From Isoetes taiwanensis (lineage: Eukaryota > Streptophyta > Lycopodiopsida > Isoetales > Isoetaceae), in the NCBI GenBank assembly GCA_021234155.1, contig JAJEKV010000075.1:1366001-1430000 (forward strand): 64,000 nucleotides of DNA, written 5' to 3'. A model generated the notes under the pieces. The model was not told the origin of the DNA and did not search any database. It saw only the letters and a list, made by a program, of their open reading frames with translations. The number at the start of each line of letters is the position of its first letter. Positions within the stretch are counted from its first letter, which is position 1. Both the position numbers and the translations under genes were made by a program. This document shows, piece after piece, positions 24,266 through 64,000 of this stretch.

Positions 24266-24426
24266 TTTTTTCAATGGGCTATGGGAGGGTCACAAATAGT
24301 GGATCATGAATCAAACACAAAATTATTTCTTTGTGCTTGTACTATATTTTTTCCAATGGGCTATGGGAGGAGCACCAATAGTGGATCATTGATCAACACA
24401 ATTTATTTGTTTGTGCTTGTACTATA
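24266..24426. repeat. ~80-bp tandem duplication inside the Helitron
   Basis: TCAATGGGCTATGGGAGG...TTTGTGCTTGTACTATA occurs twice (24266-24347 and 24348-24426). The same pair is present in units B (about 30749-30908) and C (about 37126-37284), so it predates the triplication. Confidence 0.85.
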
Positions 24427-25126
24427 GATCGCCTATTTTCCCTTATTATACATTCTTAGTCATTGATGTACAAAATATTCAATTTGCCCTCTGACTTGGC
24501 CATATGAGATTTGGATCTTCCTTGGGCAGTATCAACCAGCAATAGATTTAAGATACTTGGAATAGAATTTAGGACTCTGTGATCTTCTCTACAGCATTAA
24601 TGGCACCACTTGGCCCTATATCGAGTAAGGATGGGATCCTAAGTTGGTATAACAACTTGGCGTATTTGTCTGAGTATTTAATATGTTCATAATTTTCAAG
24701 CTCTTTTTGAAGAAGAATATGCTCTGATTTGAAGAATGTACCCACATTATCTTCTCTCCAGGTGTTGCATTAGTGAAGGATTCACATGGGAATGTGAAGA
24801 CCTCCAGACATAATACCAGGATCCTGCAGAGAAGGGACTCTGCTAGGGTAAGGTACTGATCAAGGCATATCTCTCATAGGACACATAGTGTGAAAAATAA
24901 GTTCACTTGATGCAACAAAATAACGATTGCTCTATATATTTCAAAACGTCACTAAGACTCAATCTTAGCCCTCGGCTTCTTTGGGCCTTTTCCTTAGCTA
25001 TTTCAAACTTCAAATTGAATGGCCATATTTCCCAATGATCATAACTAGATGTTCTCTTCTATATCTTTCATAATTTTTTGCTTTAATCCCAACAGAAAGC
25101 CCAGCAACGCTGGGCACTTTTTCTAG

Positions 25127-27530: not shown

Positions 27531-27534
27531 ACCT

Positions 27535-28081
27535 GGGGATGCAAATCGGGCGGGCACCTAATTTGGCACCCCCCTTGCATATTTCCTGCCCTTCTCTTCA
27601 CATCACATGGGGGTTCAAATTGGGCGGACACCCAATTTGGCACACCCCTTGCCTGTTTCTTGCCTTTCTCTTCACATCACATTGGGGTTCAAAGAATGCT
27701 TGTTGTCGCTACACGCATGAGACCGAACAGTTACGATGCATGCGGGGCCTGAGGTCGATCGAACAACTCATCCCCGCCAAGACAGACCACACGGCGGGCC
27801 CAATTTCCCCCCCTCCCACATGCATGTCCAGACATCACCTGGGGTTGCAAATTGGGCGGGCGCCCAATTTGGCATCCCCCCTGCATGTTTCATGCCCTTC
27901 TCTTCACATCACATGTGGGGTTCAAATTGGAGGGGGCGCCCAATTTAGCGCCCTCCCCTTCATGCAGGTGGCTTCCCAAGACATCACCTGGGGGTGCAAA
28001 TTGGGGGATGCCCAATTTGGCACCCCCCTTGCATGTTTCCTACCCTTCTCTTCACATCACAGGGGGGTTCAAATTGGGCGA
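27535..28081. repeat. Palindrome-centred tandem array, unit A
   Basis: About seven degenerate copies of a ~72-bp monomer around AAATTGGGCGGGCGCCCAAT. Two spacer types alternate (TTCTCTTCACATCACATGGG and ATGCA...ACATCACCTGGG), giving ~145-bp dimers. A non-repeat insert at about 27690-27800 interrupts it. Open frames across it are repeat artefacts. Confidence 0.85.
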
Positions 28082-31000: not shown

Positions 31001-31597
31001 TATCAACCAGCAATAGATTTAAGATACTTGGAATAGAATTTAGGACTCTGTGATCTTCTCTACAGCATTAATGGCACCACTTGGCCCTATATCGAGTAAG
31101 GATGGGATCCTAAGTTGGTATAACAACTTGGCGTATTTGTCTGAGTATTTAATATGTTCATAATTTTCAAGCTCTTTTTGAAGAAGAATATGCTCTGATT
31201 TGAAGAATGTACCCACATTATCTTCTCTCCAGGTGTTGCATTAGTGAAGGATTCACATGGGAATGTGAAGACCTCCAGACATAATACCAGGATCCTGCAG
31301 AGAAGGGACTCTGCTAGGGTAAGGTACTGATCAAGGCATATCTCTCATAGGACACATAGTGTCAAAAATAAGTTCACTTGATGCAACAAAATAACGATTG
31401 CTCTATATATTTCAAAACGTCACCAAGACTCAATCTTAGCCCTCGGCTTCTTTGGGCCTTTTCCTTAGCTATTTCAAACTTCAAATTGAATGGCCATATT
31501 TCCCAATGATCATAACTAGATGTTCTCTTCTATATCTTTCATAATTTTTTGCTTTAATCCCAACAGAAAGCCCAGCAACGCTGGGCACTTTTTCTAG
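28082..31597 (+). mobile_element. Helitron copy B, 5'-truncated
   Basis: Begins at the unit junction and ends at the same hairpin plus CTAG terminus (GCCCAGC 31570-31576, GCTGGGC 31580-31586, CTAG 31594-31597). It was produced by tandem duplication, not transposition, because its 5' end is missing at exactly the unit boundary. Confidence 0.8.
28174..29660 (+). pseudogene. PLS-type PPR gene, copy B
   Basis: The best preserved copy: 209 uninterrupted codons (28174-28803) covering about five repeats, including ARNAFEKLQTQDVVSWNTLI and EALKCFEKMRLEGV. The frame then leaves the PPR reading at about 28650, where the parallel frame (28608-28793) continues with GNAYIGSALVDMYVKC and ends NVVS-stop at 28791-28793. 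Further motifs follow at 28860-29144 and 29331-29647 in shifted frames. No E, E+ or DYW C-terminal domain is recognisable. It shares the frameshift near 28650 and the TAG with copies A and C. Confidence 0.85.
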
Positions 31598-34002
31598 TTT
31601 TTTAATATAGAGCAAAATGCATTCATAAAGTGAGCACATTCAAAGTATACAATCATAGTAGTGCACAAACCACACCAACAACTATTACAAAATGGTATGA
31701 AACAAGAAATAGCATGCGTGAAATATTCTCCCATGCTCCTGTTGCAGGCACCTACACATTGGAAACAATGTTGAACAATTTTCAAGATGCTCAAAATAAA
31801 AAGCAGACGACCTTTTTATGTAACTTGCGATGACTATTACATTTATACAACTGGCTATGTAACTTTAGTTTCAATTCTAACCCAACTTAATTGACACTTC
31901 TTATGTTGTGCCAAATTTGTGTAACCTTTAGTATGATGATGATGACTTGACTTTTTAATCGTAAATGTGATGTTTTTCGTCTACTTTATGAAATATAACT
32001 ACCCTAAACCAATCAAACTTTTGTATAAACATTCTTCATAAGTAAAAACCCTTAACCTTTCAAAAAAAAAAAACTCCAAAAATTAAGCACTCCATGCGTC
32101 GATACCATTTGATAAACTAGTTGCCATCCCCTCTTAGTCTTTGAATATGTTTTAGCGACGTGCATAAGAATTTTGACATTATTTGGAAGCTTCTTCTTGA
32201 TTGACGAAGTCCAGGCAATACTCTTCAATAAGGTCATTTAGTAATTGTTTGCCTCAATCTCCACTCATCACAAACACCATCTCCATCTCCATTCTCACGA
32301 ACTTGAAAACTAGAGGTCCAGTGAGCCCGATCAACCTCTCACCGCCATTAGAGATGTACCCCCTTCATGAATATCTTCCAATCAATAACCTTAACAATGA
32401 GGTAATGCACATGTTTATTGAAAGATATGGAAGATACGGAAATACATACCTATTTTTGTTCTGTACAAATGCATTGTCCAGTTGCAAAAGGAATTTTGTA
32501 GTAAGGCCTTCATGAATGACCCATTAGATGGGCCATCCATGCGGGTCCTTGTGGGTTTACCATTGACTCCATTGGCATCTTGACAATAGATAATGCCAAA
32601 TGAGGAAACTGCCTTCTTGTCGCAAAGTGCAGGTAGCCCAAGATGGCACGTATGGCTTTGATAGTGCCAAAGTCCATATATAACAAGAGAGTCCATATAT
32701 AGCGAAATTCATTTCCCCAAGTATGGCATCAAAGTGCCAGATTTCACATTCTAAAGAAATCAAAATATACCTAGTTAAGGTGTTTCCAAGTTCTTATATT
32801 CTACTGGCCTTCATTTGGAGTTCGATGATGCTGGTTCGACTGCACGCAAAACAATGAGAGACGTAATATTACAAATTAGGTGCACGCCTCATTTCCAACA
32901 CAAACCAAATTTGTAAAATATATGAAGGCAAAAATCTGTAAAATATATGAAGCCAAATTGGGCGCCCGCCCTATTTTGGATCACCAAATTGGGCGCCCGC
33001 CCAATTTGAGGGGCAAAAACAAATAAAAATAAAATTGCTTTTAAATTGGGTAGGCGCCCAATTTGGGCTGACCAAATTAGGCTTTTAGTGCATGAGATTG
33101 GCTCCCCGCAAACTTGCTCGACAAATTTGGGTCACCAAAATGAGCGTCCATCACATTTGGTCTTAGGCATGCTAAGCTCTATCTATTCACTTACAAGCAC
33201 CATAGTTGAGCCAAGTTAGTAGCAAAACAAATTATTGACGACAAGATTATTAGCAAATTTTTTATTGGAATCCTACCACATCTAGCTTTATAATTTCAAT
33301 AATAAAATCTCCTACCTCATCTTGAATCTAAGGTGTGTCTCATCCCCTCAGCATCACTGTGCCAATCATGCTGCAACACTCCTGTAACAAACATTCTTGC
33401 AATGGCATACAAATGTCCTCTTGTAATCAACATCCAAATATCTTATTTGTATAATATCTGCTAGATCCAAAGTGATCAGCTACTCCTCCGCACCCAAGGA
33501 CCTTCAGAGAGCTGGCCCTCGATGCCAAGAACATTCCTGCGTGCCTGGAATGACGGTGGCGAGAGCAGCAATGATGCAATGACGGTGGTGAAATGCGTGG
33601 AATATAGAATGGGATAGAAGCTGCTTGGGAATATTGACTCGAGCGGGAAAATATGAATTTGAATTTGAATAACCACGTGAAAGATCCATGTGGCGATTTT
33701 ATTTTAAATTTTAAATGGTCTTGAAGAGACTTTCACGCATTATGGGCCCACCAAGTACGCTTTGAACATTTCATTTTGGACATGCTGATTGTTCCATCAT
33801 GCACTCCTCTAGCCCCCGGCCGCCCGTGCTCCTCCCCCGAAGGTGCCCATCCTCCTGAAGGATTTTTATGAGGTGGTTTTGCATGTCCAAGAAAAGTACC
33901 CATTCATCAGAGGAAATTTTGAGGTGTTTCTACATGTCCTACACTGCCTAAGGTTAGCAAATTTCCTTCGGACCCTTACATGCATATGTCCCGCCTGCAC
34001 AT
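31598..34002. other. Helitron flank in unit B, no gene
   Basis: A copy of 25127-27530. At 32958-33070 the inverse array fragments are full palindromes (GGGCGCCCGCCC), unlike their counterparts in unit A. Confidence 0.5.
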
Positions 34003-34459
34003 CACACAGGGCAAATCAAAGTGGGCACCTAATTTGGCACCCCTTGCATATTTCTGCCCTTCTCTTCACATCACATGGGGGTTCAAATTGGGCGGACACC
34101 CAATTTGGCACACCCTTGCTACTGTTCTTGCCTTTCTCTTCACATCACATTGGGGTTCAAATTGGGCAGGCGCCCAATTTGGCCCCCCCCCACATGCGGG
34201 CAGGCATGCCCATCACATCACCTGGGGTTGCAAATTGGGCGGGCGCCCAATTTGGCATCCCCCCTCTCATGTTTCATGCCCTTCTCTTCACATCACATGT
34301 GGGGTTCAAATTGGAGGGGCCCCAATTTAAGCGCCCTCCCTTCATGCGGGTGGCTTCCCAAGACATCACACTTGGGGTGCAAATTGGGGATGCCCAATTT
34401 GGCACCCCCTTGCATGTTTCCCACCCTTCTCTTCACATCACGGGGGTTCAAATTGGGCG
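34003..34459. repeat. Palindrome-centred tandem array, unit B
   Basis: About six monomers of the same ~72-bp repeat, several with one- or two-base losses in the GC core. The last monomer is cut at AAATTGGGCGG, where unit C begins. Confidence 0.85.
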
Positions 34460-34559
34460 GGTAGGCTTGATTTTGTTAGGGTTTGGAATTTTGCTCGGGT
34501 AAATCAAAGACATTAAACGCCTATAATAGTATCCGAACTATGTATATTACTTGATGATC

Positions 34560-36084
34560 TTGTTAGTGAATGGAATGCATTAGTTCTTTGGGTATGGTAT
34601 GTTGACAATGGACTTTATCAAGAAGCACTAAAATGTTATGAACATATGCAAATGGAGGGAGTGCCTCGAAATGCTGTTAGCTTTGTCTGCGGATTGAAGG
34701 CTTGTGGCAGTGTAGGGGCCATAGACAAAGATTTAGCAATGCACATTGAAATTGAACTATGGGGATTTGGAAATGATCCGTATGTTGGACATACTCTGGT
34801 TGACATGTATGCCAAATGTGGTTTACTTGCAGAGGCGCGAAATGCCTTTGAGAAACTTCAAACTCAGGATGTTGTTTCCTGGAATACTTTAATTGGAGGA
34901 TATATTGAGGATGGCCAAGTGTTGGAAGCCCTTAAGTGTTTTGAAAAGATGCGGCTGAAGGGTGTGCTTCCATCTTCCATAACATATGTTTGTATTTTAA
35001 AAGCTTGTGGTATTTTGGAAGCCGTCGAAAAGTTCATAAGGAGATTGCAGATAAGGGTTATGAAGGGAATGCATATATTGGCAGTGCTTTGGTGGACATG
35101 TATGTCAAATGTACCTCACTTGCAGAGGCTCGCAAAGCCTTCAACAAATTGCCTCTTCGAAATGTTGTGTCTTAGAATTCAATGATTGCAGGATATGTTG
35201 AGCATGGGTGTGGTCAAGAAGCTTTAGAATGCTTTGAACACATGCAAAGGGAAGGAGTTTGTCCAGATGCTGTCACATTCATCTGCAGCTTGAAAGCTTG
35301 TGGCAAGCCACAGAGAGAGGTCAGGAAATACACACTGAAATCGCACGATCATGATATAGTATGCTGGAATTTTGCCATGTCAAGTTATGTTCAGAAGGGA
35401 CAATTGAAGGAAGCAATAGGTCTTTTTAAACACATGCCCCATTATGATGTAGCCTTGTGGACTATCATAATTACAACCTTTGTTCAGAATGTTCATTTCC
35501 GGCAAGCTATCCTTTTTTTCAAATAATGCCCAGGAAAAATGCTGTATCTTGGAATGCCATGTTAGTATTTTTGAAGCCTGCAGTGAGAAGGGAGCTTTAC
35601 CCTTGTTGTTGGGCTACAGATTTACATCAGATATTGTTACACAAAGTACCACAATTATTATGTATGCTGCTATTGCAGTATTTGACAAGTTATTGAAAAT
35701 GATGTGGTTTCATGGACGGCAAGCTATCCTTCCTTTCCAAAAAATGCCCAAGGAAAAATATTGTATCTTGGATGCCATTGTAGTATTTTTGAAGCCTGCA
35801 GTAAGATGGGAGCTTTACCCGAGGGTAAAAGATTGCACACCTTGTTGCTAGGCTGCAGATTTACGTCAGATATTGTTACACAAAGTACCATTAGTATTAT
35901 GTATGCTAGATGTGGCAGTTTACGTGGTGCTATTGCAGTATTTGACAGAATTATTGAAAATGATGTGGTTTCATGGACGACAATTATTGTAGCACATGCC
36001 CAACATGGATATGGCAAGGAAACATGCAAGGAAACATTACAGATATTCCATTACCGGTTTTATTTCTCCCACACTGTGAAATAG
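34560..36084 (+). pseudogene. PLS-type PPR gene, copy C
   Basis: Same gene as copies A and B. The longest frame (34646-35185) carries about five repeats and shares the frameshift near 35033 and the TAG (35173-35175) after NVVS. A separate frame (35182-35526) continues SMIAGYVEHGCGQEALECFEHM and further motifs. At several positions where A and B are scrambled, copy C reads cleanly with CAG or CTG, for example 36346-36372. Confidence 0.85.
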
Positions 36085-38799
36085 GATTCCTGAAAGAGGA
36101 ACTCAAAGAGAAAAAGACTGCACTCGATTGTCTGTATTTCTCTCATTTGTTTTTTGGTGTATCAACAGCAAATAAAACTAACAATATTTGGCCCGATCCA
36201 TTTTCTTTTAGGTGCTTCCTTTTTGTATATGAAACATTTGAAGTTAATTTTTTTTGGGGATAAACAGGAGGAACGTAGAGTTGCTTCCAGAGAACGGGGT
36301 ATTTCAAACATCTGGATTTGCTGGTCTAAGTAATGGGTATTTATATCAGAATCAGAACTTTCAGCAAAGCCAGAATCTCTTGGGCTGGCCACATTTTCTT
36401 GACAATGCTTATCAAACCAGTCCTTTGAATAGGAACAGTGCTGTACAACGCAGAATTTATAAGAGGTGGCAAGGCTAGGTTTCAAAGGAGAATTCCTAAT
36501 ATTGTGCTTTTGCAAGATACGAGATGCAATTCCCGGTAGCATGAAGTTCTCATTCATGCGTTGATTTGGGGCAATTGAAAGTCGGATCGCCACCGAATGA
36601 AAAACCATGCATGTATTTTGCAAATCTAAATGCTTCGACACGTTCAATATTATTTTGGCCATTTACCATATTCACACAAATGAGTATCGGATATGCTAGC
36701 CAATGTTATGTCCACATTGCAGGCATTGCTTCATAGTATGGAAACTCTTCTCAGATATTGGAAAGACCAAGCAATGGATAAGATGAAGGATATTTAATCA
36801 TTGAGATTGTAAGTCGAGTCTGGAAGATTTTGTACTATGGAAGATTTATTTACTAAAACCATCACTCACTTGTAACACTTCGTCATGGTATACTTATAAA
36901 ACATGGTGCTTTCACACTATGGGTTGCCCCTAAAACCAATTGTGATCTCAAAACGAGGGAATAATAGGCCATAATAGTACTACAATGCCTTTTAATGTCT
37001 TTTGCAATGTAGAGATTATTTGGAGTGGAGTGGGATGTTTCTAGGTTTGTGAGCACGAAACATGATCTTGGAGCTTCATTTGCACAATCATAGCTACGAC
37101 TAGAATTTAATAAAACACCATGTTTTTCAATGGGCTATGGGAGGGTCACAAATAGTGGACCATGAATCAAACACAAAATTATTTCTTTGTGCTTGTACTA
37201 TATTTTTTCAATGGGCTATGGGAGGAGCACCAATAGTGGATCATTGATCAACACAATTTATTTGTTTGTGCTTGTACTATAGATCGCCTATTTTCCCTTA
37301 TTATACATTCTTAGTCATTGATGTACAAAATATTCAATTTGCCCTCTGACTTGGCCATATGAGATTTGGATCTTCCTTGGGCAAGTATCAACCAAAGAAT
37401 AGATTTAAGATACTTGGAATAGAATTTAGGACTCTGTGATCTTCTCTACAGCATTAATGGCACCACTTGGCCCTATATCGAGTAAGGATGGGATCCTAAG
37501 TTGGTATAACAACTTGGCGTATTTGTCTGAGTATTTAATATGTTCATAATTTTCAAGCTCTTTTTGAAGAAGTATATGCTCTGATTTGAAGAATGTACCC
37601 ACATTATCTTCTCCCCAGGTGTTGCATGAATTTCGTCGTGAAAATGCACGCAAAACAATGAGAGACGTAATATTACAAATTAGGTGCACGCCTCATTTCC
37701 AACACAAACCAAATTTGTAAAATATATGAAGGCAAAAATCTGTAAAATATATGAAGCCAAATTGGGCGCCCGCCCTATTTTGGATCACCAAATTGGGCGC
37801 CCGCCCAATTTGAGGGGCAAAAACAAATAAAAATAAAATTGCTTTTAAATTGGGCAGGCCCCCAATTTGAGCTGACCAAATTAGGCTTTCAGTGCATGAG
37901 ATTGGCTCCCCGCAAACTTGCTCGACAAATTTGGGTCACCAAAATGAGTGTCCATCACATTTGGTCTTAGGCATGCTAAGCTCTATCTATTCACTTACAA
38001 GCACCATAGTTGAGCCAAGTTAGTAGCAAAACAAATTATTGACGACAACATTATTAGCAAATTTTTTATTGGAATCCTACCACATCTAGCTTTATAATTT
38101 CAATAATAAAATCTCCTACCTCATCTTGAATCTAAGGTGTGTCTCATCCCCTCAGCATCATTGTGCCAATCATGCTGCAACACTCCTGTAACAAACATTC
38201 TTGCAATGGCATACAAATGTCCTCTTGTAATCAACATCCAAATATCTTATTTGTATAATATCTGCTAGATCCAAAGTGATCAGCTACTCCTCCGCACCCA
38301 AGGACCTTCAGAGAGCTGGCCCTCGATGCCAAGAACATTCTCAAGTGCACGGAATGACGGTGGCGCGAGCAAAGAATGATGCAATGACGGTGGTGAAATG
38401 CGTGGAATATAGAATGGGATAGAAGCCTGCTTGGGAATATTGACTCGAAGGGAAAATCAATTTGAATTTGAATAACCACGTGAAAGATCCATGTGGCTAC
38501 TTTATTTTAAATTTTAAATGGTCTTGAAGAGACTTTCACGCATTATGGGCCCACCAAGTACGCTTTGAACATTTCATTTTGGACATGCTGATTGTTCCAT
38601 CATGCACTCCTCTTGCCCCTGCTCCTCCTCCCGAAGGTGCCCATCCTCCCGGAAGGATTTTTATGAGGTGGTTTTGCATGTCCAAGAAAAGTACCCATTC
38701 ATCGTAGGAAATTTTGAGGTGTTTCTACATGTCCTACAACGCCTAAGGTTAGCAAATTTCCTTTTCCCCTTACATGCATATGTCCCGCCCAGACATCAC

Positions 38800-39730
38800 A
38801 GGGGGATGCAAATCAGGCCGGGCACCTAATTTGGCACCCCCCTTGCATATTTCCTGCCCTTCTCTTCACATCACATGGGGGTTCAAATTGGGCGGACACC
38901 CAATTTGGCACACCCCTTGCCTGTTTCTTGCCTTTCTCTTCACATCACATTGGGGTTCAAATTGGGCAGGCGCCCAATTTGGCCCCCCCCCCTCCCACAT
39001 GCGGATGGCATGCCCGGACATCACACAGGGTTGCAAATTGGGCGCCCAATTTGGCATCCCCCTCCATGTTCATGCCCTTCTCTTCACATCACATGTGGGT
39101 TCAAATTGGAGGGGGCCCAATTTAAGCCCCTCCCTTCATGCAGTGTGGCTTCCCAAGACATCACACGGGGGTGCAAATTGGGGGGATGCCCAATTTGGCA
39201 CCCCCCCCCATGTTTCCTACCCTTCTCTTCACATCACAGGGGGGTTCAAATTGGGCGGGCGCCCAATTTGGCACCCCCCTTTACGCAGATGGCCTGTCCA
39301 GACATCATTTGGGAGTGCAAATTGGGCGGGCGCCCAATTTGGCACCACCCTTGCATGTTGCCTGCTCTTCTCTTCACATCACATGGGGGTTCAAATTGGG
39401 CAGGCGCCCAACTTGGCACCCTCCCTTACATGCAGATGGCCTGCTCAGACATCACCTGGGGTTGCAAATTGGGCGGGCGTCCAATTTGGCACCCCCCCTC
39501 CCCCTGCATGTTTCCTGCCCTTCTCTTCACATCATATGGGGGTTCAAGGCCCAATATGGCGTCCACCCTCCCCCCCCCAAACTCCCATCCCCACCCACCC
39601 AAACCACATGCGAGAAAATGCCCAGACATCACCTGGGGATGCAAATTGGGCGGGCGCCCAATTTGACAAACCCCTTGCATGTTTCCTGCCCTTCTCTTCA
39701 CATCACCTGGGGGTGCAAATTGTGCATGGA
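38800..39730. repeat. Palindrome-centred tandem array, unit C
   Basis: About twelve monomers of 71-75 bp (for example AAATTGGG starting at 39248, 39319, 39393 and 39466). The core AAATTGGGCG/CGCCCAATTT is a perfect palindrome with a two-base centre. Two alternating spacers define a dimer of about 145 bp. Three frames stay open for hundreds of codons because the monomer lacks stops. Confidence 0.9.
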
Positions 39731-41130
39731 CCCCAGTGTACTCACGCATGCCTCAAAAGGTGTGCCAGATAATATATTCAATTGTTTACTACTTAGAAAC
39801 TTGAATTATACACCGGCGCTACGATTTAAGATATATATGTACCTACGAAAAGTCCAAATTTTATGAAATTGTGCTCAAGGTGAGTAGAAGCAGTGTATCT
39901 GCTCATTGCATTATCAAGTTTTGGAAGGCATACCAGATTAGCTGAAATCGACCACATTATTTCGGTAAAGAGGGCTATTGCACTCCATGTCTTCGACTTC
40001 GCAATACCCCAACCGCGATCGAGATCACTAGCAGTAACGGCTGCGCACACAGCAAGAAGAGATCTTGAGGAAGTAGCAAGTGACATTCAAGGAGGAGCAG
40101 TAGAAAACACCCTCCGTAGCTTAGGTACAGGACTTAGGCCAGAAGAAGTACAAAAGTACTTACAAGACAACACCGACTATTTCTATTGGAAAAGGTTATA
40201 TTTGATATTCAACTCCAGATATATATAAATATATACATTTTTTGCATATTTTATTTGTTCTATTATTTTCCTTGTCTTGTCAAATGTAACAACATATCAC
40301 AGGTACAAGAACCAAGGAAGTAATAATATATGTGACAATGTGAAATGTGTGCAGCAAGAACACCAAGGACTGCCGAACCTAATAGGCGTCGACCAACCGA
40401 CTTCTTTTTTTTAGAGTAACATTAATAGATATAGATTTTTTTCATTAATATCAATATATAATACATATATATTCTTTGTTTGTCCTTCTTTGAGGTACAA
40501 GAATTGCTGCAGTTCTAGCCTATATACATGTCTGCCATGTCATGCAAAATATATCTCTATCATTGAATTTCTTATTTTTCAATCGTACTGCTAAGGAAAT
40601 TAAAACTTCTTTGGAAATTTGTCTTCGATATATTGTGCTATGTGTGCGACAACTAGAGCAGGGGATTAGGGAGTTTTTTGCAATCTTAGGCATGTCGGAA
40701 ATCCATTCAAGTTTTGCCCTGTCAATTCATCTCTTGCAACTTTACCATTGTGACGTTTTCTTAGGCAGTACCAATCTAGAAACTTTGCCTAGGAAGTACC
40801 AACTTAGAAACCTCGATGAGGAATTTGGAATGTTAATCCCGAAAGAGGAGATGTCCCAAATGCGATCGAACATTCAAGAGATAAAGCCTTTGCTAGCAGA
40901 AAGAGCAGGGAATGGTCAAGGCCAGAATGTCTCGCTACTTCAAGCACTTGTACAACACAAGGGGAATGGAAAAAAGAGAAACAGATGTAGATCTTCGAGT
41001 TCTGACTCAACCTTAGAAAGCTCGGCCTTTGAATCAAAGGAGTGGAGAGTAAACATGACAGCCGGGAGGGTCGTAATAGGGATACAGTGGAAAAAAAGGT
41101 CAGATTATCCGAAGAAGGTGGATGAGTAAT
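39731..41130 (+). other. 5' part of a Ty3 relic with unrecognised frames
   Basis: Two plus frames, 39893-40228 and 40542-41129, precede gag-like sequence. The second ends in a Lys/Arg/Ser-rich stretch (GNGKKRNRCRSSSSDS) like a gag N-terminal region. The first is unrecognised. No LTR or primer-binding site is identifiable, so the 5' limit is uncertain. Confidence 0.4.
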
Positions 41131-46430: not shown

Positions 46431-46600
46431 GCATTAGTGAGTGAGAAAAATATTGGGGGGTGGGTGTCACATAGTAAAGGAGAAAATTTTCAACCAAGGC
46501 TAGCATTGCAAGTTTTCTCCGGATTGTCAGCTTCAAACATTACGGGATATGTTGCTGGCTATACAAGGGTGACAAAGAATGGAAGAGGAAAGGCAAATGA

Positions 46601-47020
46601 CTAAGAATCGTAAAATGCGAGGAGTTCATGGATTTGAAAGTCACAGATAGATTGCTCTTCATTTTGGAGCAACCAAAGAAAATGGCTGAATAAGACTTCC
46701 TCGCAAGCTATATAGAGTCCAGCAGAATGCTGGAAGCCAAACTCCTCTGCAGATAGGTCGAGCAAGGTTTTGAAGAGAGGGTGGTTAAGGCTAGAAGCCT
46801 CCACAATAAAACGACGCCTATGCTTCCCCACATAAACAGCCAAGTAGCCTTTTGGCACATCAGGTGGAACTGCATACTCTCCATCATCTTCATCACTCGA
46901 ACCATCATCACTAGACCTGCTCCAAGATAACGAGCTCCTCCACAGCCCCTCCCCCTGTCGCCTCTGCCCCATGCTCCCCATCTTTTGAAACAATTTCCAT
47001 ATCTTGAGTTTAGGAGCCAT
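46601..47020 (-). CDS. SAUR-family auxin-response protein (copy 3)
   Basis: Intact 139-codon intronless frame from ATG 47020. The SAUR domain spans about residues 54-118: DVPKGYLAVYVGKHRRRFIV, SSLNHPLFKTLLDLSAEEFG, and GLYIACEEVLFSHFLWLL. The N-terminus is basic with an acidic SSDEDDGEY stretch. It is the inverted sister of copy 2 at 15.0 kb and retains both ends that copy 2 has lost, so it is the likelier functional member of the pair. The expected role is auxin-induced cell expansion through phosphatase inhibition at the plasma membrane, from family knowledge only. Confidence 0.93.
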   Translation of the reverse strand: MAPKLKIWKLFQKMGSMGQRRQGEGLWRSSLSWSRSSDDGSSDEDDGEYAVPPDVPKGYLAVYVGKHRRRFIVEASSLNHPLFKTLLDLSAEEFGFQHSAGLYIACEEVLFSHFLWLLQNEEQSICDFQIHELLAFYDS

Positions 47021-47700
47021 AGCCTACTATCCACAACTTCTTCCCCTCTTCTACCAACAAATGAGATACGTTGGGGTATTTATGCCGTCCTATCCGTAAC
47101 ATTGCTACTCAAAATGTAATAATATTGCCAAAATATAGCTATCACTACATGCTCTATAGGTGTCCCACAATATTTACAACACATGTGCTCTTGACCAGAA
47201 AAATCACTCTGGATCTTGCTGCTCCACAAGTATCGCACAAGTGTCGACAGCTGCCTCATATCATCTTCACAATTTAGCTAGCGCACCAGAGCTTGAGTGG
47301 TTGTAAAAATGGCATGCTGAGTCTAGAATTCTTTGAAGCCCCCACCACATCTAGATTATGTTGCCTAGCCTTTCCTTGACCTGCTTGGGACTGGATCAAA
47401 AATGCTTCCGGTTAAAGGTAGAGAAAGAGCAGAAAATGTATCATGTTAACCAAAAGAGTGTCCTAGACCGACAAGTCATAACTTCACAAGTAGAGGTCAA
47501 GATCTTTGTGGACCACTTAACAAACGAGATAAGGATGTTCTAGTCCATTCTCTTTTTGTAACCACATAACCTCTGACGTACTAGTTATATGATATGAGAC
47601 ATCTTATGACACTTGTGGGCACTAGTAGTAAAGGCATGTGGGACATGGGAAGATCTTTATGGCAAAATAGAGCATAAGTTGATAGCTCCCTTTTTTGGCC
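47021..47700. promoter_or_regulatory. Fused divergent SAUR promoter blocks (copy 3 locus)
   Basis: 47021-47400 is the inverse of 14681-15041 and serves copy 3 on the minus strand. 47401-47700 is the inverse of 12600-12946, the upstream block of copy 1, and points right. No SAUR coding sequence follows to its right, so one promoter block is orphaned. The two blocks are adjacent here but 1.73 kb apart at 12.9-14.7 kb. Confidence 0.7.
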
Positions 47701-51843: not shown

Positions 51844-52434
51844 GGCATAACGGAAAATATCCATTGGGCTTCATTCTGCACCTGAATGCAGGGTAAGATC
51901 GATGAAATGCAAGGTAAGATCGACGAAAGGAAAGTAAAAATCTGTCGTTATTCTTGCTTGACTTTCAAACAAATAATATTTGCCACATGTTATAACCTCA
52001 TTGGATGGGAAAGCAGAATGAAGCCTAATGGTTTTTTTGGTGTTAATCTATGCTATTCACGTGACAATGGCAAATATCTTAATAAACTCTAAACCTATTC
52101 AAACAACATAGTATATAGTTTAACAATTAGATAAATTTGAAAACTCCAGAGACATGACAATTGCTCTTTAAACTACTACTTTTTGCTCGAAAAATGTATT
52201 GTGCCTGTTGTTTGCTAGTTGTTGATCCAGATGGTCTTCTATAATTCCAAACTAATTCACTGTTGCTGCCTCAAACAATGTAATGCTTATGCAGCAAGTT
52301 CAATGTAAGTGCCTTGTGAAGTCATGCAGCATGTAATTCAAAACTGTCTTGCATAACCTGAATAACTTTTAAGCCAGTTGTTGATCCAGATGGTCTTCTA
52401 CAGTTCCAAACTAATTCACTGTTGCTGCCTCAAA
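51844..52434. other. Flank of the Ty3 element with a 58-bp direct repeat
   Basis: AGTTGTTGATCCAGATGGTC...TGCTGCCTCAAA occurs at 52218-52275 and 52376-52434, 158 bp apart. The second copy ends exactly where the LTR begins. A short 20-bp duplication (AGGTAAGATCGA(T/C)GAAA) is at about 51891-51935. Confidence 0.7.
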
Positions 52435-52487: not shown

Positions 52488-54005
52488 CCAGTATAGATAC
52501 ACCGCTATGGGGCATGTTGACCTAGGGGGTTGGCCACAATGGATTTAATTAGCTATGCTAATTTAAATATAAAGGATAATTACCTAAATACTTGCTATTA
52601 AGACACCTAATGGTGGGAAGGCGCCATTTGGCATAACCTGGGTGGCTAGCATGGGGGTTTCTAAACCAAGCCACCAAGTGACAGCGCCACCCCCATCTCA
52701 CCCCAATTTCGACCCAACCAGCACCAGGAAGCAGCTAAGCGCTCAGGGCCCAGCTGCTGAACCTCGCCCAATCGCCCAGACACCCTTTAACCGTTGCTGC
52801 CACCCCAGTACAGCACTATGGAGGCACCCCTTGACAACGGCTCTAGCCGAAACACTGGTCAGTGGTAGTTTAATTTGCAATTTGTAGAATAATACTTTGG
52901 TGTTCTTGTCTGACTAGCTTTGGTTCAGATTAACCCTTCTTTGGTAACTAGGAATATTGTTCAATTATGAATGATGCTCTGTTATGGAATGGTCGATGTC
53001 TCTATAAGTTAGTTCAGTAATTTCCAGTAAACAGGGGATTAAAAGGGGGGTAGAGGCCTCTGAGCTCAAGTGTAGAATGCTCCTAGTACTTCCTTAAATG
53101 CCCTACTAGTTTCGGCCTGTGCACAAGAGCCCACCGGGTCATAGACGCTATGGTCTGGCTTAGCACCAGACAAGGGACGCAGTGGTGAAGTAGGGGGTGG
53201 GGTCTTGCACGAGCATAAAAGGCTCCTGAGACTCCTACAGTGGGCTAGGCCTGATAGCCGGTCACGTGGAGGGCCGGGTATGGGTCTGACACTCCCTGGG
53301 TGTAGTGGTGTGACCCGTATGGGGCACCATGCACTTTGAGTAGAATTAGGGTGAGTAAATCGGGTACGGATGCGGGGGTCGCTGATGCGGCACATATTCT
53401 CTAGCTCACCCACGACACCACTGTGATCCTGGAAGGGGACGCCTCCCCGACCTGCCTCATCGGAGAGTAGACTCAAAGGGTGATCCCTAGACTCTACGTC
53501 TCCGGAAGGCTATAGCGAAGCCATAGCGTGACTCGACCTATCTGCAAAGTGTGCACAGGAGGGGCGGATGGAGTGGACAACCCTAGCCGATGTTCTATGC
53601 CAGCCAACGCCATGCCAAGATTCGGTCTGCCGATCTCCTGAGACCCAGCAGTCAGTCGCTCCCCCACTAGAGTCTGAGCCGGGGTAGAACCTGGGTTTTG
53701 GGTGTTTTCTTAGTCTTAGATGCATATTCTTGCCGTTGGTATTTGGATGGATGTGCCACCCTTCGAGGTGGTTATTTATATGTGATTTATATGCTGTGTG
53801 CTAACCCTTGTATTCATGCTTCCTTGACGTAGGCTTCCATCGGCGTGGGCCGAATGACCCCTCCGTATCCTTCACCTGAGCGTCTCTACGTAGACGGCCC
53901 GGGTTAGATGGAGGGCCCTGCTCCTGGCGCGATGGTCGCCATGGGAGGGGAAAGTCCCCGTATGTATACGGTCGGGGGTCGTATATATTTTAGGAGCGTC
54001 CGCGA
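52435..54005 (+). repeat. 5' LTR (~1.57 kb)
   Basis: Starts TGTGACGTTCCAAG, repeated at 63528. The end is set by the primer-binding site at 54006; the usual terminal CA is not clear (ends ...CCGCGA). Internal segments are related to remnants at 15.9-16.7 kb. Polymerase II promoter elements should lie here. A TATATATTTTA run at about 53982 is close to the LTR end. Confidence 0.8.
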
Positions 54006-54017
54006 TGGTATCGAGCC
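54006..54017 (+). other. Primer-binding site (initiator tRNA-Met type)
   Basis: TGGTATCGAGCC at 54006-54017. Plant LTR elements primed by initiator methionine tRNA carry TGGTATCAGAGC; this differs only by loss of the A in CAG. It lies directly after the LTR. Confidence 0.75.
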
Positions 54018-54792: not shown

Positions 54793-56049
54793 ATGGCCAA
54801 TACCAAGAGCACCATCGACCCAAAGACCCTAAGCATAGTGCAGATTCATGCCTTGATTGCCCGGCACATGGCTACCGACCCGGCCTTCATCGACATCCTT
54901 CTGGATGAGTTGGTGAACCGTTTTGAGAATAATGATAGGATTCCCTATCCTATCTATCACTTCTCGGAGCCATTCCTGATCCGGCTGAACCTTCGTCAGC
55001 TTTCTTACACTCTTGTTGAGCAACCTGACATGGTTATGATGCTGATTAAGTTCTATCCTCCCGAGCAAGAGGGCCATACCGAGGAGGAGGATATCAGGGC
55101 AGAAGCTGATCGCATTAGGGCCTTCGCCAGGGAAGATGACCACCGGGAGGTAGAGCGAGCAGATACAGCTACTCGTGGCAGGGAGTACCGGTATTTAGGG
55201 GACGGCTTTGGCGTCATAGATGGCAGGGAAATTGAGGTTCCCCCGTACCAATGGCATGAAGGCTCTCAGAGCTTCATGTGGGGAGCCCCGATCCCTGATA
55301 TCAGTCTGGATTACCTGACAACGATCCAGATTGATATGAACCAGCGATCCAACGGATACCATGCTGAACTTCTTCGCCGAAGCGCCGCCCAACAATTCGC
55401 TCAGATTCAAGAAGATCTGAGGAGAGCCCGGGAGTTCCGGGAAGAACAGGAGAGGCTCGAAAGGGAGAAGAAGGCTCAGCAAGACCAGACGAACCCACAG
55501 GGGGACGGGGGATCTGGAAGCGGGTCGGGCCCAACCCACACGGAGCATGTGACCGTTAAGCACCGGAGGAAGGGTTTAGCCCGGAAGACTGGCAGTCAAT
55601 ACAAGGAGAAGTTACGGACTGTCGGTGCTTTTGGTAAGAATGTGAGCTCCAATCGAAGGCAGCAGCGGGTGGATTCGTCCCGACCGACTGTTGGGGCCAA
55701 GACCGTGCCTACACCAAGAGGGCCGCCTCCAAACCCTGCTCCCCAGAGGAAGCCCCACCGATATAAACCCGGTACCGTGGCCTTACGGGAGATCCGTAAG
55801 TTTCAGAAGTCAACTCAACTTCTGATACGGAAGCTCCCCTTCCAGAGGTTGGTCCGGGAGATTGCACAGGAGTTCAAGACCGACCTCCGTTTCCAGACTT
55901 TTGCTATTTTGGCACTCCAAGAGGCTGCTGAAGCCTATTTGGTGGCACTTTTTGGTGACGCCAATCTTTGCGCGATCCACGCAAAGAGGGTAACCATAAT
56001 GCCTAAGGATTTAGCCCTCGCCCGCAGGATTCGGGGGGAGCATCCTTAG
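54793..56049 (+). CDS. Retrotransposon ORF1: novel domain fused to histone H3 core
   Basis: Intact frame of 418 codons from ATG 54793 (an upstream in-frame extension has no ATG). Residues 1-180: unrecognised, partly helical ([20 protein letters not shown]). Residues 190-232: charged helix, probably coiled coil ([19 protein letters not shown]). Residues 233-318: Gly/Ser then basic linker including GLARKTG. Residues 319-418: histone H3 core without gaps, starting [20 protein letters not shown] and [20 protein letters not shown], ending [20 protein letters not shown] and [10 protein letters not shown]. By eye more than four fifths match ordinary plant H3; the loop 1 and helix patterns are of canonical H3, not CENH3. 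The first 36 residues of H3 are replaced or highly diverged. It lies between primer-binding site and gag, same strand. Likely role (inference): nucleosome-like binding of element DNA or chromatin targeting. Confidence 0.9.
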
Positions 56050-56259
56050 CATAATTTTGCTGGCCTCCACATTGTAAATATTTTTTTTTTGGTATTTAAT
56101 AAAAACTTTTTATTTGTATTAAAAACTTATTTATTTTGTATTAAAAATGAAAAAAAAAAATGCTGACGTCAGCCTAAATAAAAGGAGTTAAAAGGACTTT
56201 AAAAAGTCCATTTCAATTGTTAGGATTGTTTCTCTTCCTCTCACCTCCCTTTCAGCACC
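56050..56259 (+). promoter_or_regulatory. Possible ORF1 poly(A) signal and ORF2 promoter
   Basis: AATAAAAA at about 56097 could end an ORF1 transcript. GCTGACGTCAGC (56162-56173) is a perfect palindrome with the bZIP/CRE site TGACGTCA. CTAAATAAAAGG follows at 56174-56185 as a TATA-like element, then a small palindrome GGACTT/AAGTCC at about 56199-56214. The ATG of ORF2 is 75 bp downstream in a good context (CACCATGG). TTTCAG at 56250-56255 could alternatively be a splice acceptor. Confidence 0.5.
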
Positions 56260-57659
56260 ATGGCAGCCGCCGACCTTACCGCCTGGTACCATGACGGAGA
56301 GCAATGGGATCCGCAAGTCCCGTTCGACCTGCTGCGGCCTTTGCTATGCCAGCGCCTAGATCTCCTTGCCAACATGCAGAGGCATCCGGATTATGCCGGA
56401 TTTCTAGATTTCTACAGGGAGGAGATGCTCCCTCTGTGTATTCCTCTTGGGGATCCTCCCCAACTATATCTGGAGCGGGAGGTAGTCCGGGAGATGTTAG
56501 GAGGGGACACCCATGCATATGATGTGCTGAAGGGGAAGCTCCGATGGGGCAAACATCTACCCGTTGTGCAGCATCAGGGTCGGCAATACCTTGAGGTTGC
56601 CTTTGCCCTAGCCATCCTCATGGATCAATATGTCGAGGATCAAACCTTGCCTGTGGAGAAAGGCAAACTACCTGAGTCTTCCGAGGAGGGGGAAGACGAA
56701 CACATAGGCATGGGCGACTTCGCCCGTTGGAGGCAATTAGCGGAAGAGCTGCCTCCGTGCCGTGAGCAAGCCGTAGGCTTGTCAGGGCTGGATGCCCTTC
56801 CAGTTATTTATCACCAAGGGCAAGAATATCTCCTCTTGGATGATATTATCTGGACTTATCACATGGTGGCTGGATTTAGGCGCAAACGTAAAGACCACGT
56901 GCTTTATGAGCTTGCAGAGTATTGCATGGATGATTTCATCGACTTCACTTCTATTGAGTTGCCTTCGGAGGTGCAGCAGCTGCTCCAGTTCCGCCAGGAG
57001 ACTATCGAACCCGCCGAGACATTGCTACGGCTTCGGGACTTCGTGATGCAGGAGCCGGCCTCTCAGCCCTCACCAGATGCCTTCACGGCTATGGGACCTC
57101 ACGTCCCAAACATCAATATGGTTGAGGTTCCCTCGGGTTCAGATGACGAGGGAGAGGATTTATATCATAATCCTGCTCATGAGAAGGAGGAGCAACAAGA
57201 ACTTAAGGAAGAGGAGGTTTTCATGGATTTGGATAAAGAGGTGGCCACATTAGAGACCCGCAAGGGAAGGTATCGGGCAACCACCTCACCCGTTTCTTTT
57301 TGTCAGCCTTTCGACATGGGCAAGTCCTTTTTGTGGCCCGGGATTTGGGTCCGGAGGCTGAAGCTTCATGGTGGGCCCTCCGTGCTCTCTCTACACTGGC
57401 CGGGCACAAGAAGCTCCCCTACCGTACGTTTACTTATGTACTCGTGCGACGGGATCTCGCCATGACGGCCTTAGGTCAGGACATCGCGCCCTGGATGAGC
57501 ATGAAGCTTCTTACGGCAGCCCCATTGGCCGTTGCCTATCCACCAGAGGTTGCATCTATTGCGGCTGCCACAGTAGATCCTGGGGTGACCCTGCTTCGAC
57601 ACCGACCGCTACCACCACCTCCTAGGTCTACAGATGAAGAAGGAGGACCTAGTTCCTGA
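56260..57659 (+). CDS. Retrotransposon ORF2: accessory protein with internal repeat
   Basis: No known family recognised. Frame 1 runs 56260-57465; near 57290 the sequence appears to shift, and the frame 57300-57659 continues more plausibly (VARDLGPEAEASWWALRALS, ending DEEGGPSS). Residues 99-128 (HLPVVQHQGRQYLEV) and 179-208 (ALPVIYHQGQEYLLL) are an internal duplication 80 residues apart. Residues 285-330 are strongly acidic. A diverged, collinear relic lies at 19383-20332, so the protein is older than this insertion. It has no zinc knuckle and no protease or polymerase motif. The shift falls at a T5 run next to CAG and could be a sequence error or programmed. Role unknown; the acidic stretch would be compatible with histone binding, which is speculation. 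Confidence 0.7.
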
Positions 57660-58859: not shown

Positions 58860-59411
58860 GGTTCATCTATCAGTGGTGACCATGCAAAGCGCCGAGACAA
58901 AGAGTACCGTAAGACGGTTGATACAGCTATAACGAGTATATGGAAGAATAGGAAATTGGCCCAGTTTGATGGGAAATCCCGAGGCGGTTTAAACGCCGAG
59001 TCCTGGTTGGATGAGATGAAGGAGTTTGGGAAGTCTTACGGAATGACAGAGAAAGATACAGGAAAGGTTGCCACCACCAACCTTACAGGAGCTGCCCGTA
59101 TTTGGTGGAAGGGCTATGCCAGAGCCAAGCATTTGGACAGGAGCAGATGCAACTTCAGGAAGTTTGCCAAGGCCTTCAAGTCGCATTATGTGCCCCGTGC
59201 GCACAAATGCCAACATATCCAGACTTTCTACAGGTTGGAGCGAGAAGAGTATGTCGTGCGGGCTTACGGATGAGTTTATCTTTGAGGTTGTATGTACCTG
59301 GTATGAATGAGAAAAGGCGTTGGAAGGCTATATTGAGGGATTGGCACCATCAATCAAACGAATGGTTAAGGCCATAGACCCAAAATCAGTTCGCAGGGCG
59401 AGGCTAAAGCA
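58860..59411 (+). pseudogene. gag capsid region, frameshifted
   Basis: The capsid protein packages element RNA into virus-like particles in the cytoplasm. The frame to 59273 reads AQFDGKSRGGLNAESWLDEM, TTNLTGAARIWWKGYARAKH and FAKAFKSHYVPRAHKC, the Ty3 retrotransposon-gag domain. Near 59262-59290 the frame breaks (expected MxEFMRLRLYVPG is in shifted pieces), and again before 59390. The relic at 41.2 kb carries the same domain. Confidence 0.85.
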
Positions 59412-61910: not shown

Positions 61911-63323
61911 TTGTATCACAAGGATAAGTTGTGTGTACCGCAAACTTCAGGAGTACGGAAACTCATTCTTCATGACACGCACAATAGCCCTATAGCTGGA
62001 CACGCAGGGTTTATGAAAACCTACTTTAAGATTCGTTCCAGCTATTTCTGGCCTTCTATGAAGAAGGACATTGCCAGATACATTAGGCAGTGTCAGGTAT
62101 GCCAGCAGACTAAAGAAGAACAGTTAAGAATCCCAGGTGAGCTACAACCTCTGGATGTGCCCAACGCCAAATGGGAAGTAATAACTATGGATTTCATTGT
62201 GGGCCTTCCAAGAACTCTCCGAGGATATGATGCCTTAATGGTTGTGGTCGACAAATTGTCCAAAATGGCTCATTTCTTGCCATGCCATACCACGGATACA
62301 GCCTTTGATACTACTCTGCTTTTCGCCAAGGAAATCTTCAGATTACACGGAATGCCACGAGTAATTGTGTCGGATAGGGATCCCAAATTTGTGAGCGCAT
62401 TCTGGAAAGATTTCTTTACCACCATTCAGACCAAGCTTGCTATGAGTACAGCATATCATCCTCAAACAGATGGCCAAACAGAGCGGGCCAATCGCATTAT
62501 AGAGGATATGCTAAGAAGTTATGTGTGGAGTAAGCAATCACAATGGGCTGACTATATTTATCTGGTCGAGTTTGCTTATAACAGCATGAAGCAGGAATCT
62601 TCCAGGATGTCCCCCTTTATGATAAATTATGGTTATCAATGCCTTACCCCAGATACATGGCATAACCCCGTCTCTAAAGTAGAGGTTTCTCAACAACTCC
62701 TCTTAGAGATGCAAGCGCTGGTCGAAGAAGTTCGTGGTTATTTATTAGTTACACGCAGTCGTCAGAAGAGTGTGGCCGACAAACACAGAACCCCACGCAT
62801 TTTCCAGGTGGGCGACTCGGTTTGGCTTAAGATTAAAGTGAAACAAGCCAAGCTTAAGATTGGCAACTGCAAGAAGTTGGCACCCAGATGGGCTGGACCG
62901 TTCAAGATTATTGACCGTGTTGGAGAGCAGGCATATCGCTTGGATTTGCCGCCCCGCTTGAAGATCCATAAAGTCTTTCACGTGAGTCTTCTCAAGCAAC
63001 ACACCCCTGCTCCAGAGGAGGTTTTAGACACCCCAATCCTCCTAGAAATGACGGAGGAGCAACTCGAGATAGTCCCTGAAGCTCTTCTTGATCGAGCTTA
63101 CAAACAAACCAGAAGGACTCAAATGTTGCAATACTTGGTTAAGTGGAAACACTTACCAGTTGAGGATGCTACGTGGGTGATGAAAATAGACCTTGACAAG
63201 CACTATCCGGACTTCATGCGGGAATCTCAAGGCCGCACCATCAACGATGCGATCAACCCCGCTTCCGGCGGTAAGTGCAAGACTTGTGTGGCCAAGAAGT
63301 ATGTGGAACAAGATGCATCATAG
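61911..63323 (+). CDS. Integrase with chromodomain-like C-terminus
   Basis: 470-codon frame (start chosen at the first codon after the last stop; really the end of the polyprotein). Zinc-binding HHCC: H24, H31, C61, C64. Catalytic core: D94 (TMDF), D155 (VSDRD), E191 (TDGQTER), with the classical 35-residue spacing between D155 and E191. GPY/F module at WAGPF, residues 327-331. Residues about 403-437 (MLQYLVKWKHLPVEDATWVM) match the chromodomain pattern YLVKWxxxxxxxATW, the histone-tail reader that defines chromoviruses. All catalytic residues are present and the frame is intact, so this part could act in trans. It inserts element DNA into chromosomes in the nucleus. Confidence 0.93.
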   Translation: MYHKDKLCVPQTSGVRKLILHDTHNSPIAGHAGFMKTYFKIRSSYFWPSMKKDIARYIRQCQVCQQTKEEQLRIPGELQPLDVPNAKWEVITMDFIVGLPRTLRGYDALMVVVDKLSKMAHFLPCHTTDTAFDTTLLFAKEIFRLHGMPRVIVSDRDPKFVSAFWKDFFTTIQTKLAMSTAYHPQTDGQTERANRIIEDMLRSYVWSKQSQWADYIYLVEFAYNSMKQESSRMSPFMINYGYQCLTPDTWHNPVSKVEVSQQLLLEMQALVEEVRGYLLVTRSRQKSVADKHRTPRIFQVGDSVWLKIKVKQAKLKIGNCKKLAPRWAGPFKIIDRVGEQAYRLDLPPRLKIHKVFHVSLLKQHTPAPEEVLDTPILLEMTEEQLEIVPEALLDRAYKQTRRTQMLQYLVKWKHLPVEDATWVMKIDLDKHYPDFMRESQGRTINDAINPASGGKCKTCVAKKYVEQDAS

Positions 63324-63527: not shown

Positions 63528-63669
63528 TGTGACGTTCCAAGTATTTATACAGTATACGTATAAATATATTGACACGTCACCTAGTATAGATACACCGCTA
63601 TGGGGCATGTTGACCTAGGGGGTTGGCCACAATGGATTTAATTAGCTATGCTAATTTAAATATAAAGGA
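63528..63669 (+). repeat. 3' LTR, first 142 bp, interrupted by a Helitron
   Basis: Matches 52435-52576 with two substitutions (52458 G/A, and C/T about 30 bases later). Similarity stops exactly at an A; the 5' LTR continues with T at that point. Confidence 0.9.
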
Positions 63670-64000
63670 TCTTATATTATAATGTTTTAGGGTGTGTCTT
63701 TAACCACGCCCTAATTTGGATGGTCGAGATTCGTTTGATGGACGATTGAGATTAACTTTTGCAAAGAACGAACTCCGGCGAGCAGTTTGGAGGTCGATTA
63801 CACTTTTATTAGGTGTTTTTTTCCCGTTTCCTTTCTTCCTAAAACCCTAAGCCATTCCGGAGGACGGCATGGCCCCATTGTTTTGTCGCCTCCTTCAACA
63901 GCTTCTTTCTGGCAGTTACAAGATCCATTAGCCACTGCAAGCTTGCTGCATGTTTATTTTGCCCTAGATCGGCATGTGCTCTTGATGAATACGAGCTCCG
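63670..64000 (+). mobile_element. Helitron 5' end, runs off the window
   Basis: TCTTATATTATAATGTTTTA begins directly after A at the LTR break. 5' TC, the AT-rich start and insertion between A and T fit a Helitron. GATGGTCGAGATTCGTTTGA-like wording resembles leaders after other Helitron 5' ends, including that at 21.0 kb. The 3' end lies beyond the window. Confidence 0.6.

Follow-up and report, generated by a model that had tools for sequence, protein, structure and literature searches.

Plant Ty3/gypsy chromoviruses share LTRs, a primer-binding site (PBS), the order gag, protease (PR), reverse transcriptase (RT), RNase H and integrase, and a C-terminal chromodomain. Transduced host genes and additional ORFs are known in plant LTR elements (PMC7264820), and a screen of 121 angiosperm genomes reported 15 atypical domains in such elements; the same study describes, in Gypsy elements of Phalaenopsis, an m6A demethylase of the AlkB type (PMC9289625). 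The nine atypical domains named there include no histone, the full list being given in a figure or supplementary chart, and its main text uses "histone" only twice, in other senses. The term does not occur in the available text of PMC7264820 or of PMC5408684, which treats bdelloid LTR elements. In the surveyed literature, virus-encoded core histones come from DNA viruses and bracoviruses. The bracovirus H4 protein CvBV-H4 has been recovered in host nucleosomes (PMC9145170), and the main text of that review of viral histones contains neither "retrotranspos" nor "retrovir". Among the papers listed by searches of the open-licence PMC literature, judged by titles and abstract openings, none describes a core histone encoded by a retrotransposon, which agrees with a remark in the preliminary description of the present locus that no plant LTR element with a core histone was known to its author.

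We analysed a 64,000-nucleotide stretch of the Isoetes taiwanensis genome (the window), in which a chromovirus carries such a domain. Unlike plant chromoviruses, the element has its PBS and gag separated by over 4 kb that hold three extra sense ORFs, the first of which ends in a full histone H3 core. It resembles the Phalaenopsis AlkB elements (PMC9289625) in that a host-type domain has become fixed in a lineage and is present in many copies, although the domain differs. With CvBV-H4 (PMC9145170) it shares a single host-like core histone, approximately 87% identical in the fold, that carries an N-terminal extension; the bracovirus protein differs in being H4 rather than H3, in having an extension of 38 residues as against about 300, and in belonging to a nudivirus-derived system rather than to a retrotransposon. 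The features of the element are as follows.

52430..52434, strand not assigned: 5′ copy of the target site duplication (TSD), TCAAA, 5 bp; the same TCAAA directly follows the 3′ LTR end in L093
52435..54004, + strand: 5′ LTR of roughly 1.57 kb with an approximate right end; its first letters are TGTGACG, and the 3′ LTR ends CGTCACA
54006..54017, + strand: primer-binding site TGGTATCGAGCC, directly 3′ of the LTR
54793..56049, + strand: ORF1, 418 codons, with a tail-tip-like start, orphan domain, coiled-coil/charged stretch, basic linker and H3 core
54793..54813, + strand: first residues of ORF1, MANTKST, similar to the H3 tail tip MARTKQT with Lys 4 kept
54814..55542, + strand: orphan N-terminal domain and charged/coiled stretch, with a predicted long helix at residues 172–233
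55543..55746, + strand: basic linker directly N-terminal to the H3 core, conserved in an alignment of 20 copies
55747..56046, + strand: histone H3 core, H3 residues 36–135, from translation, Pfam, PDB and copy comparison
56050..56259, + strand: ORF1–ORF2 spacer with polyadenylation-like, then promoter-like AT-rich motifs (TGACGTCA), compared by eye in 7 copies
56260..57659, + strand: ORF2, acidic orphan, two overlapping frames in the window (56260–57465 and 57300–57659) and a single frame in L019
57808..58296, + strand: ORF3, acidic orphan protein, from the ORF listing and copy comparison
58956..59273, + strand: gag (Retrotrans_gag, Ty3 capsid-like) by Pfam; a longer gag-pro-RT frame in L019
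59412..61826, + strand: protease, reverse transcriptase and RNase H, spread over several broken frames in the window copy
61911..63323, + strand: integrase and C-terminal chromodomain (Integrase_H2C2, rve, SH3_Tf2-1, Chromo at E 4.3e-08)
63528..63670, + strand: first part of the 3′ LTR, broken off after 63670 by about 4.9 kb of other DNA, with the remainder beyond the window (L093)

With paired LTRs, a TSD, the characteristic domain order and a chromodomain, the element is a Ty3/gypsy chromovirus-type LTR retrotransposon. The first ~145 bp of the 5′ LTR recur at 63528 with 98.6% identity, and positions 52577–54000 match the remainder of the 3′ LTR in L093 at 97.1% over 1433 columns with 14 gaps. 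Together, the two LTRs differ at 30 of about 1564 ungapped columns (~1.9%), indicating a fairly recent insertion. The PBS, TGGTATCGAGCC, is one that we take to resemble the initiator-Met tRNA type. Downstream of ORF1, Pfam matches on the + strand run from gag through PR, RT and RNase H to integrase and chromodomain; the chromodomain (PF00385) scores 33.4 bits against a cut-off of 25.1 and, judged by eye against the HP1 cage, is without the first and third cage aromatics. The placement of ORF1 between the PBS and gag of a Ty3 chromovirus, on one strand, was thus correctly read in the preliminary description: LTR and PBS lie upstream, gag to chromodomain downstream, and all are on the + strand. 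The target DNA contains a 62-bp direct repeat (52214–52275 and 52373–52434), and the element inserted where the second copy ends. Elsewhere in the window, a 160-bp stretch at 16531–16685 is 76% alike to 53537–53687 within the LTR, possibly an old relative or remnant.

ORF1 is one uninterrupted frame of 418 codons from its ATG, and positions 55747–56046 translate into 100 stop-free residues (ORF1 residues 319–418). The only Pfam family matched by ORF1 is the core histone family PF00125 (E 7.8e-41), and the H3 core aligns without gaps to PDB H3 chains, with a best E of 6.6e-53. The fold core is complete, being ungapped over H3 36–135, and is 87% identical to host H3; with an E value of 7.8e-41 and a gap-free alignment, a chance or partial H3 match was rejected. 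These results bear out the original claims that an LTR element encodes an H3 core within its own protein, here the first ORF of the element, that the C-terminal 100 residues form this core without gaps, and that no stop separates it from the N-terminal part in the single frame 54793–56049. Methionines occur at ORF1 residues 1, 26, 80, 82, 83, 162, 182 and 403. As none falls between residues 182 and 403, translation from an ATG can yield the H3 part only as a fusion.

The centromeric variant CENH3 is also an H3 with a conserved core and a divergent tail. CENH3 typically has a longer loop 1 and a diverged core, whereas the core of the element is nearly canonical and has no loop-1 insertion. With loop 1 ungapped relative to canonical H3 and 87% identity to host H3, we rejected a CENH3 identity.

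We then surveyed the 1.658 Gb assembly (1110 contigs) for further copies. In the histone search, 150 of 8705 candidates were scored; the window's own H3 is missing from these 150, so the list is only part of the total. The 15 best matches span the whole profile, and the 8 of them that were fetched (L001–L008) are ordinary 136-residue H3 genes. From the other 135 places we took 39 as an H3-chosen sample, 20 as stretches of 9.9 kb and 19 as stretches of ~1.7 kb. In the 20 long stretches tblastn found, in element order, H3 in 20 (by choice), the N-terminal part of ORF1 (N-part) in 19, ORF2 in 19, ORF3 in 15 and gag in 18, and all 20 show the element surrounding H3. Missing parts include deletions and insertions, such as an insertion within ORF3 of L014. 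The L013 copy is a derivative with gag within about 0.7 kb past the end of ORF1-H3, in which ORF2 and ORF3 were not found by tblastn.

Because samples chosen by H3 favour intact H3, two further samples were chosen by the N-part and by gag. The N-part query gave 125 scored places out of 4685 candidates, the window among them; all matches are 73–100% identical and therefore represent one clade. We read 43 of the 124 places besides the window, and every one has an H3 match: 28 are gap-free over the 100 codons, 3 of them with one in-frame stop, and the remaining 15 have gaps, frameshifts or a partial match. The gag search scored 40 out of 2672 candidates, including the window itself. Hand comparison with the histone and N-part searches found an ORF1 match at a suitable distance in 11 of the other 39, with H3 in 7 and the N-part only in 4. 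In a further 20 gag-chosen copies, a 371-bp slice at the expected H3 site contained H3 in 14 (several broken or partial) and neighbouring ORF1/ORF2 sequence in 3, and element sequence was absent from the remaining 3; many of the gag-chosen copies are decayed. In an LTR-chosen sample most matches stop at the LTR end, as would be expected of 3′ or solo LTRs. The scored places from the histone and N-part searches, more than 200 with overlaps included, are lower bounds. Further copies with H3 at the same position, which had been set beforehand as the test of the claim, were found on separate contigs, and this recurrence at many places excludes a chimeric assembly join.

The 40 copies (the 39 and the window) fall by their H3 residues into four clades that we assigned as A (3), B (7), C (28) and D (2). 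These have diverged nearly to synonymous saturation, and the N-parts of clades B–D are only 25–34% identical to that of the window. Across the 20 long stretches and the window, between-clade median synonymous differences are 0.71–0.90 for H3, 0.73–0.82 for the N-part and 0.75–0.81 for ORF2. For gag, PR and RT the between-clade values are 0.43–0.63, not above those within clades B and C (0.44–0.63). The PR of the window is closest to that of L012, a clade C copy. The RT sequences of L023, from clade D, and L028, from clade B, show a synonymous difference of just 0.06, as against a B–D median of 0.90 for H3, and ORF3 nearest neighbours also cross clades, as in L010 (B) with L019 (C) at 0.25. The nearly identical RTs of L023 and L028, joined to H3/ORF1 modules of different clades, point to recombination between lineages. 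We infer from these distances that an ORF1–ORF2 module and an ORF3–gag–pol backbone have been swapped between lineages.

A tree built from 41 H3 cores groups the 12 cellular rows, which are of host, angiosperm, animal and algal (Closterium) origin, and the branch dividing them from the element H3s is supported at 100/97; the tree is unrooted and only 6 of its 34 inner branches are well supported. This split, together with the common architecture of ORF1, suggests a single capture of H3.

Selection on the H3 core was estimated from Nei–Gojobori counts with a custom script. Median H3 dN/dS is 0.016 in clade A (3 pairs), 0.020 in clade B (21 pairs) and 0 in clade D (one pair); in clade C, median dN is 0.032 against a dS of 0.719 over 378 pairs. 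Between the window and L024, dN/dS is 0.024 for H3, 0.134 for the N-part, 0.340 for the linker, 0.162 and 0.125 for two pieces of ORF2, 0.105 for ORF3, 0.119 for gag and 0.105 for PR; the integrase, with 0.367 and 10 stops, is decayed in that comparison. Short integrase stretches of 15–44 codons gave 0.024–0.039 in three window comparisons. Over 15 within-clade pairs H3 dN/dS ranges from 0 to 0.068, and that of the N-part, where finite, from 0.040 to 0.291 (0.040–0.099 in clade C over residues 1–190, and 0.227–0.291 in clade B). For L019 and L012 the N-part and H3 values are equal (0.061 and 0.062), so the N-part is constrained as well. It is the distance between clades that separates the N-part from H3.

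The N-part-chosen sample resolves these changes by age. Pairwise H3 dN/dS falls from 0.17 for the closest copies to 0.02 for the most distant as dS grows. Codon variants common to at least three copies number 70 synonymous to 5 non-synonymous; for variants in two copies the counts are 12.5 to 10.5, and for singletons 47 to 35, with synonymous and non-synonymous sites standing at 74 to 226. Recent changes thus resemble post-insertion decay and old ones have been filtered, so that selection acts by way of retrotransposition. With dN/dS near 0.02 and shared variants at 70 to 5, the H3 core is shown to be under strong purifying selection in the replicating lineage, and the earlier suggestion of selection after capture is upheld. 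A low-copy transduced host gene free of selection was rejected, given the many copies and the selection on H3.

The pattern of substitution broadly supports the further claim that changes avoid the structural core. Across the 40 copies residues 108–120 are invariant and 65–85 change in few, but 86–107 and the ends vary. At 59 of the 100 core positions no element copy differs from 8 host H3s. Invariant in 40 of 40 are K56, L65, P66, R69, R72, K79, R83, F84, C110, H113, K115, R116, T118, D123, L126, R129 and I130, and R63 is retained in 39. The conserved residues presumably include H3–H3′, H4, chaperone and DNA contacts. K36 is changed in 37 of 40 copies (to R in 36 and Q in 1), and every copy carries E105 to G or S, T107A, and S86 to T or A.

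ORF1 does not have the canonical H3 tail with K4, K9 and K27; about 300 residues stand in its place. To compare the starts we aligned 20 of the 22 ORF1s with an N-part of at least 270 residues, omitting L020 and L045, in which the first Met is internal, and using the second of two neighbouring Mets as the start of L015. The starts read MARTKGTKS in clade D, MANTKS in A, M(P/S)RFKLT in C and ME(T/E)(P/V)K in B, and MANTK also begins three further clade A copies. By positional count the fourth residue past Met is Lys in all 20, although the aligner places clade B otherwise. When likeness to ARTKQT was scored against 20,000 random draws, the clade D copies L022 and L023 were matched by none and the window ORF1 by 1; L024 and L042 (clade A) were matched by 20 and 26, L019 and L013 (clade C) by 132 and 53, and three clade B copies by 895, 364 and 3999. 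Likeness to the tail tip is therefore clear in clades A and D, marginal in C and not outstanding in B. On account of this likeness in clades A and D, ORF1 is better viewed as an H3 with an insertion of ~300 residues in its tail, and its N-terminal part probably does not derive from a foreign protein joined to an H3 core. The alternative to an H3 tail opened by insertion is that the likeness arose by convergence.

A whole-ORF1 protein search was dominated by histones, with 5278 matches at E ≤0.001 among 8000 scored candidates, and among the 120 matches listed the best local match spans at most 44% of ORF1. The N-part alone found no homologue in ~5.8 billion proteins (3809 candidates), and none was found among 8000 scored candidates when 20 aligned copies served as query. 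Repeats are often masked in protein databases. Against Pfam, 20 N-parts drew only 13 scattered weak families (best E 0.038), and against PDB there was no match. A single-sequence AlphaFold model of the window ORF1 (mean pLDDT 41) gives a long helix at residues 172–233 that is only partly confident. The linker, with a pI of 11.8 in copy L019, was considered as a remnant of the inner H3 tail (PATGG/STGGK), and this was rejected: in 9 copies it is no more H3-tail-like than shuffles at the 5% level, with 57 to 590 of 1000 shuffles reaching its score. The clade A linker contains ARKS/ARKT, and a methylatable site may therefore persist there.

Between ORF1 and gag lie two extra ORFs, ORF2 and ORF3. 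Neither has a Pfam match at E ≤1; against PDB, ORF2 gave only two annexin matches (E ~0.66), which we regard as chance, and ORF3 gave none. In L019, ORF2 has a pI of 4.5 and a net charge of −41, and ORF3 has a pI of 4.6 in L019 and L022, the two copies for which its charge was computed. The spacer that precedes ORF2 contains TATAAA and TAGGGTTT in L019 and L016, TAGGGTTT in L011 and L022, and TGACGTCA in two clade A copies; these promoter-like motifs may give ORF2 a promoter of its own.

What use might an element make of a histone? The near constancy of H3 while the rest of ORF1 drifts far suggests that the element uses it on host chromatin. In the reading that we favour with moderate confidence, an H3 gene was taken up, probably in a single event, by a chromovirus-type LTR retrotransposon, which has retained it at the C-terminal end of ORF1. 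The ORF1 protein would still fold as H3, pair with host H4 and enter nucleosomes on element DNA, host chromatin or both. The resulting variant would have a Lys-4 tip, no recognisable K9/K27 tail and a mostly replaced K36, and its most likely benefit would be chromatin that resists H3K9/K27-type silencing, or tethering of the element by the long tail. ORF2 and ORF3, both acidic, might be partners or chaperones of the basic ORF1, a guess from charge. If this is true, the element has a direct tool of its own against chromatin silencing, and an H3 that is under selection with its tail replaced is a natural experiment on the indispensable parts of H3 chromatin.

A more specific proposal, which we hold only tentatively and think less probable than its denial, is that the element builds silencing-resistant chromatin on its own copies and that the four far-diverged tail clades, swapped between gag-pol backbones, reflect an arms race with host chromatin factors. 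With an H3K4-type tip kept, the K9/K27 tail lost and K36 mostly lost, the usual H3K9 methylation route would be unable to mark packaged element copies. The ARKS/ARKT in the clade A linker could be a site of methylation, which counts against a simple loss of every silencing mark.

Several other readings were weighed. Nucleosomes on the element, or the long tail, might act with the integrase chromodomain to steer insertion. A chromodomain is indeed present in the same element, and chromodomains have been proposed to direct chromoviruses to heterochromatin (PMC3350952); that of the element, however, is without the first and third aromatics, as in plant group II, the activity of which is poorly understood (PMC3350952). 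We consider targeting of this kind rather doubtful as the main role, but it overlaps with the favoured reading, in which tethering is allowed, and the probabilities of the readings do not add up to one. Alternatively, the H3 part might bind element RNA or DNA in particles, in packaging or before integration, and never enter nucleosomes. A long basic linker and a coiled-coil extension joined to the core would suit such a role, as would the conserved DNA-contact residues. Packaging would not demand the conservation of H3–H3′ and H4-facing residues, which is also seen, and the element has a gag of its own, with a zinc knuckle weakly matched in L019 (Pfam E 0.0092, below cut-off); a particle role is unlikely. 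We think it also improbable, and a little more so, that ORF1 is a decoy that ties up H4, or chaperones of H3 (ASF1 or CAF-1, for example), and so loosens host chromatin generally. The chaperone-facing residues do appear conserved, and the tail is replaced, but DNA-contact arginines that a soluble decoy would not need are equally strict (R63 in 39 of 40 copies; R69, R72 and R83 in all 40).

That H3 merely travels along as a piece of a transduced host gene, of no function for the element, has precedent in the transduced genes of plant LTR elements (PMC7264820), but is very improbable in view of a dN/dS of ~0.02 with near-saturated dS between clades, the 70 to 5 ratio of shared variants, and the presence of H3 in all four anciently split clades. 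A host H3 gene or assembly join adjoining an LTR element by chance is hardly credible, as the arrangement is repeated at many places on separate contigs and LTRs and TSD enclose H3; nothing in the data spoke for it.

Other parts of the window are repetitive. Multi-kilobase direct repeats occupy 21602–39547: positions 21602–27693 recur at 28081–34161 (96.6%), 27819–31241 at 34201–37627 (96.3%) and 21603–24770 at 34460–37627 (95.7%), and arrays of a ~73/145-bp unit lie at 27.5–28.1, 34.0–34.5 and 38.8–39.5 kb. A 332-codon open frame at 38774–39772 runs over a ~74-bp tandem array and is probably a by-product of the repeat; together with an overlapping 263-codon frame, it accounts for all frames of at least 250 codons in 1–52000. 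Inverted copies of ~950 bp, 85% alike, are found at 14679–15609 and 46440–47388.
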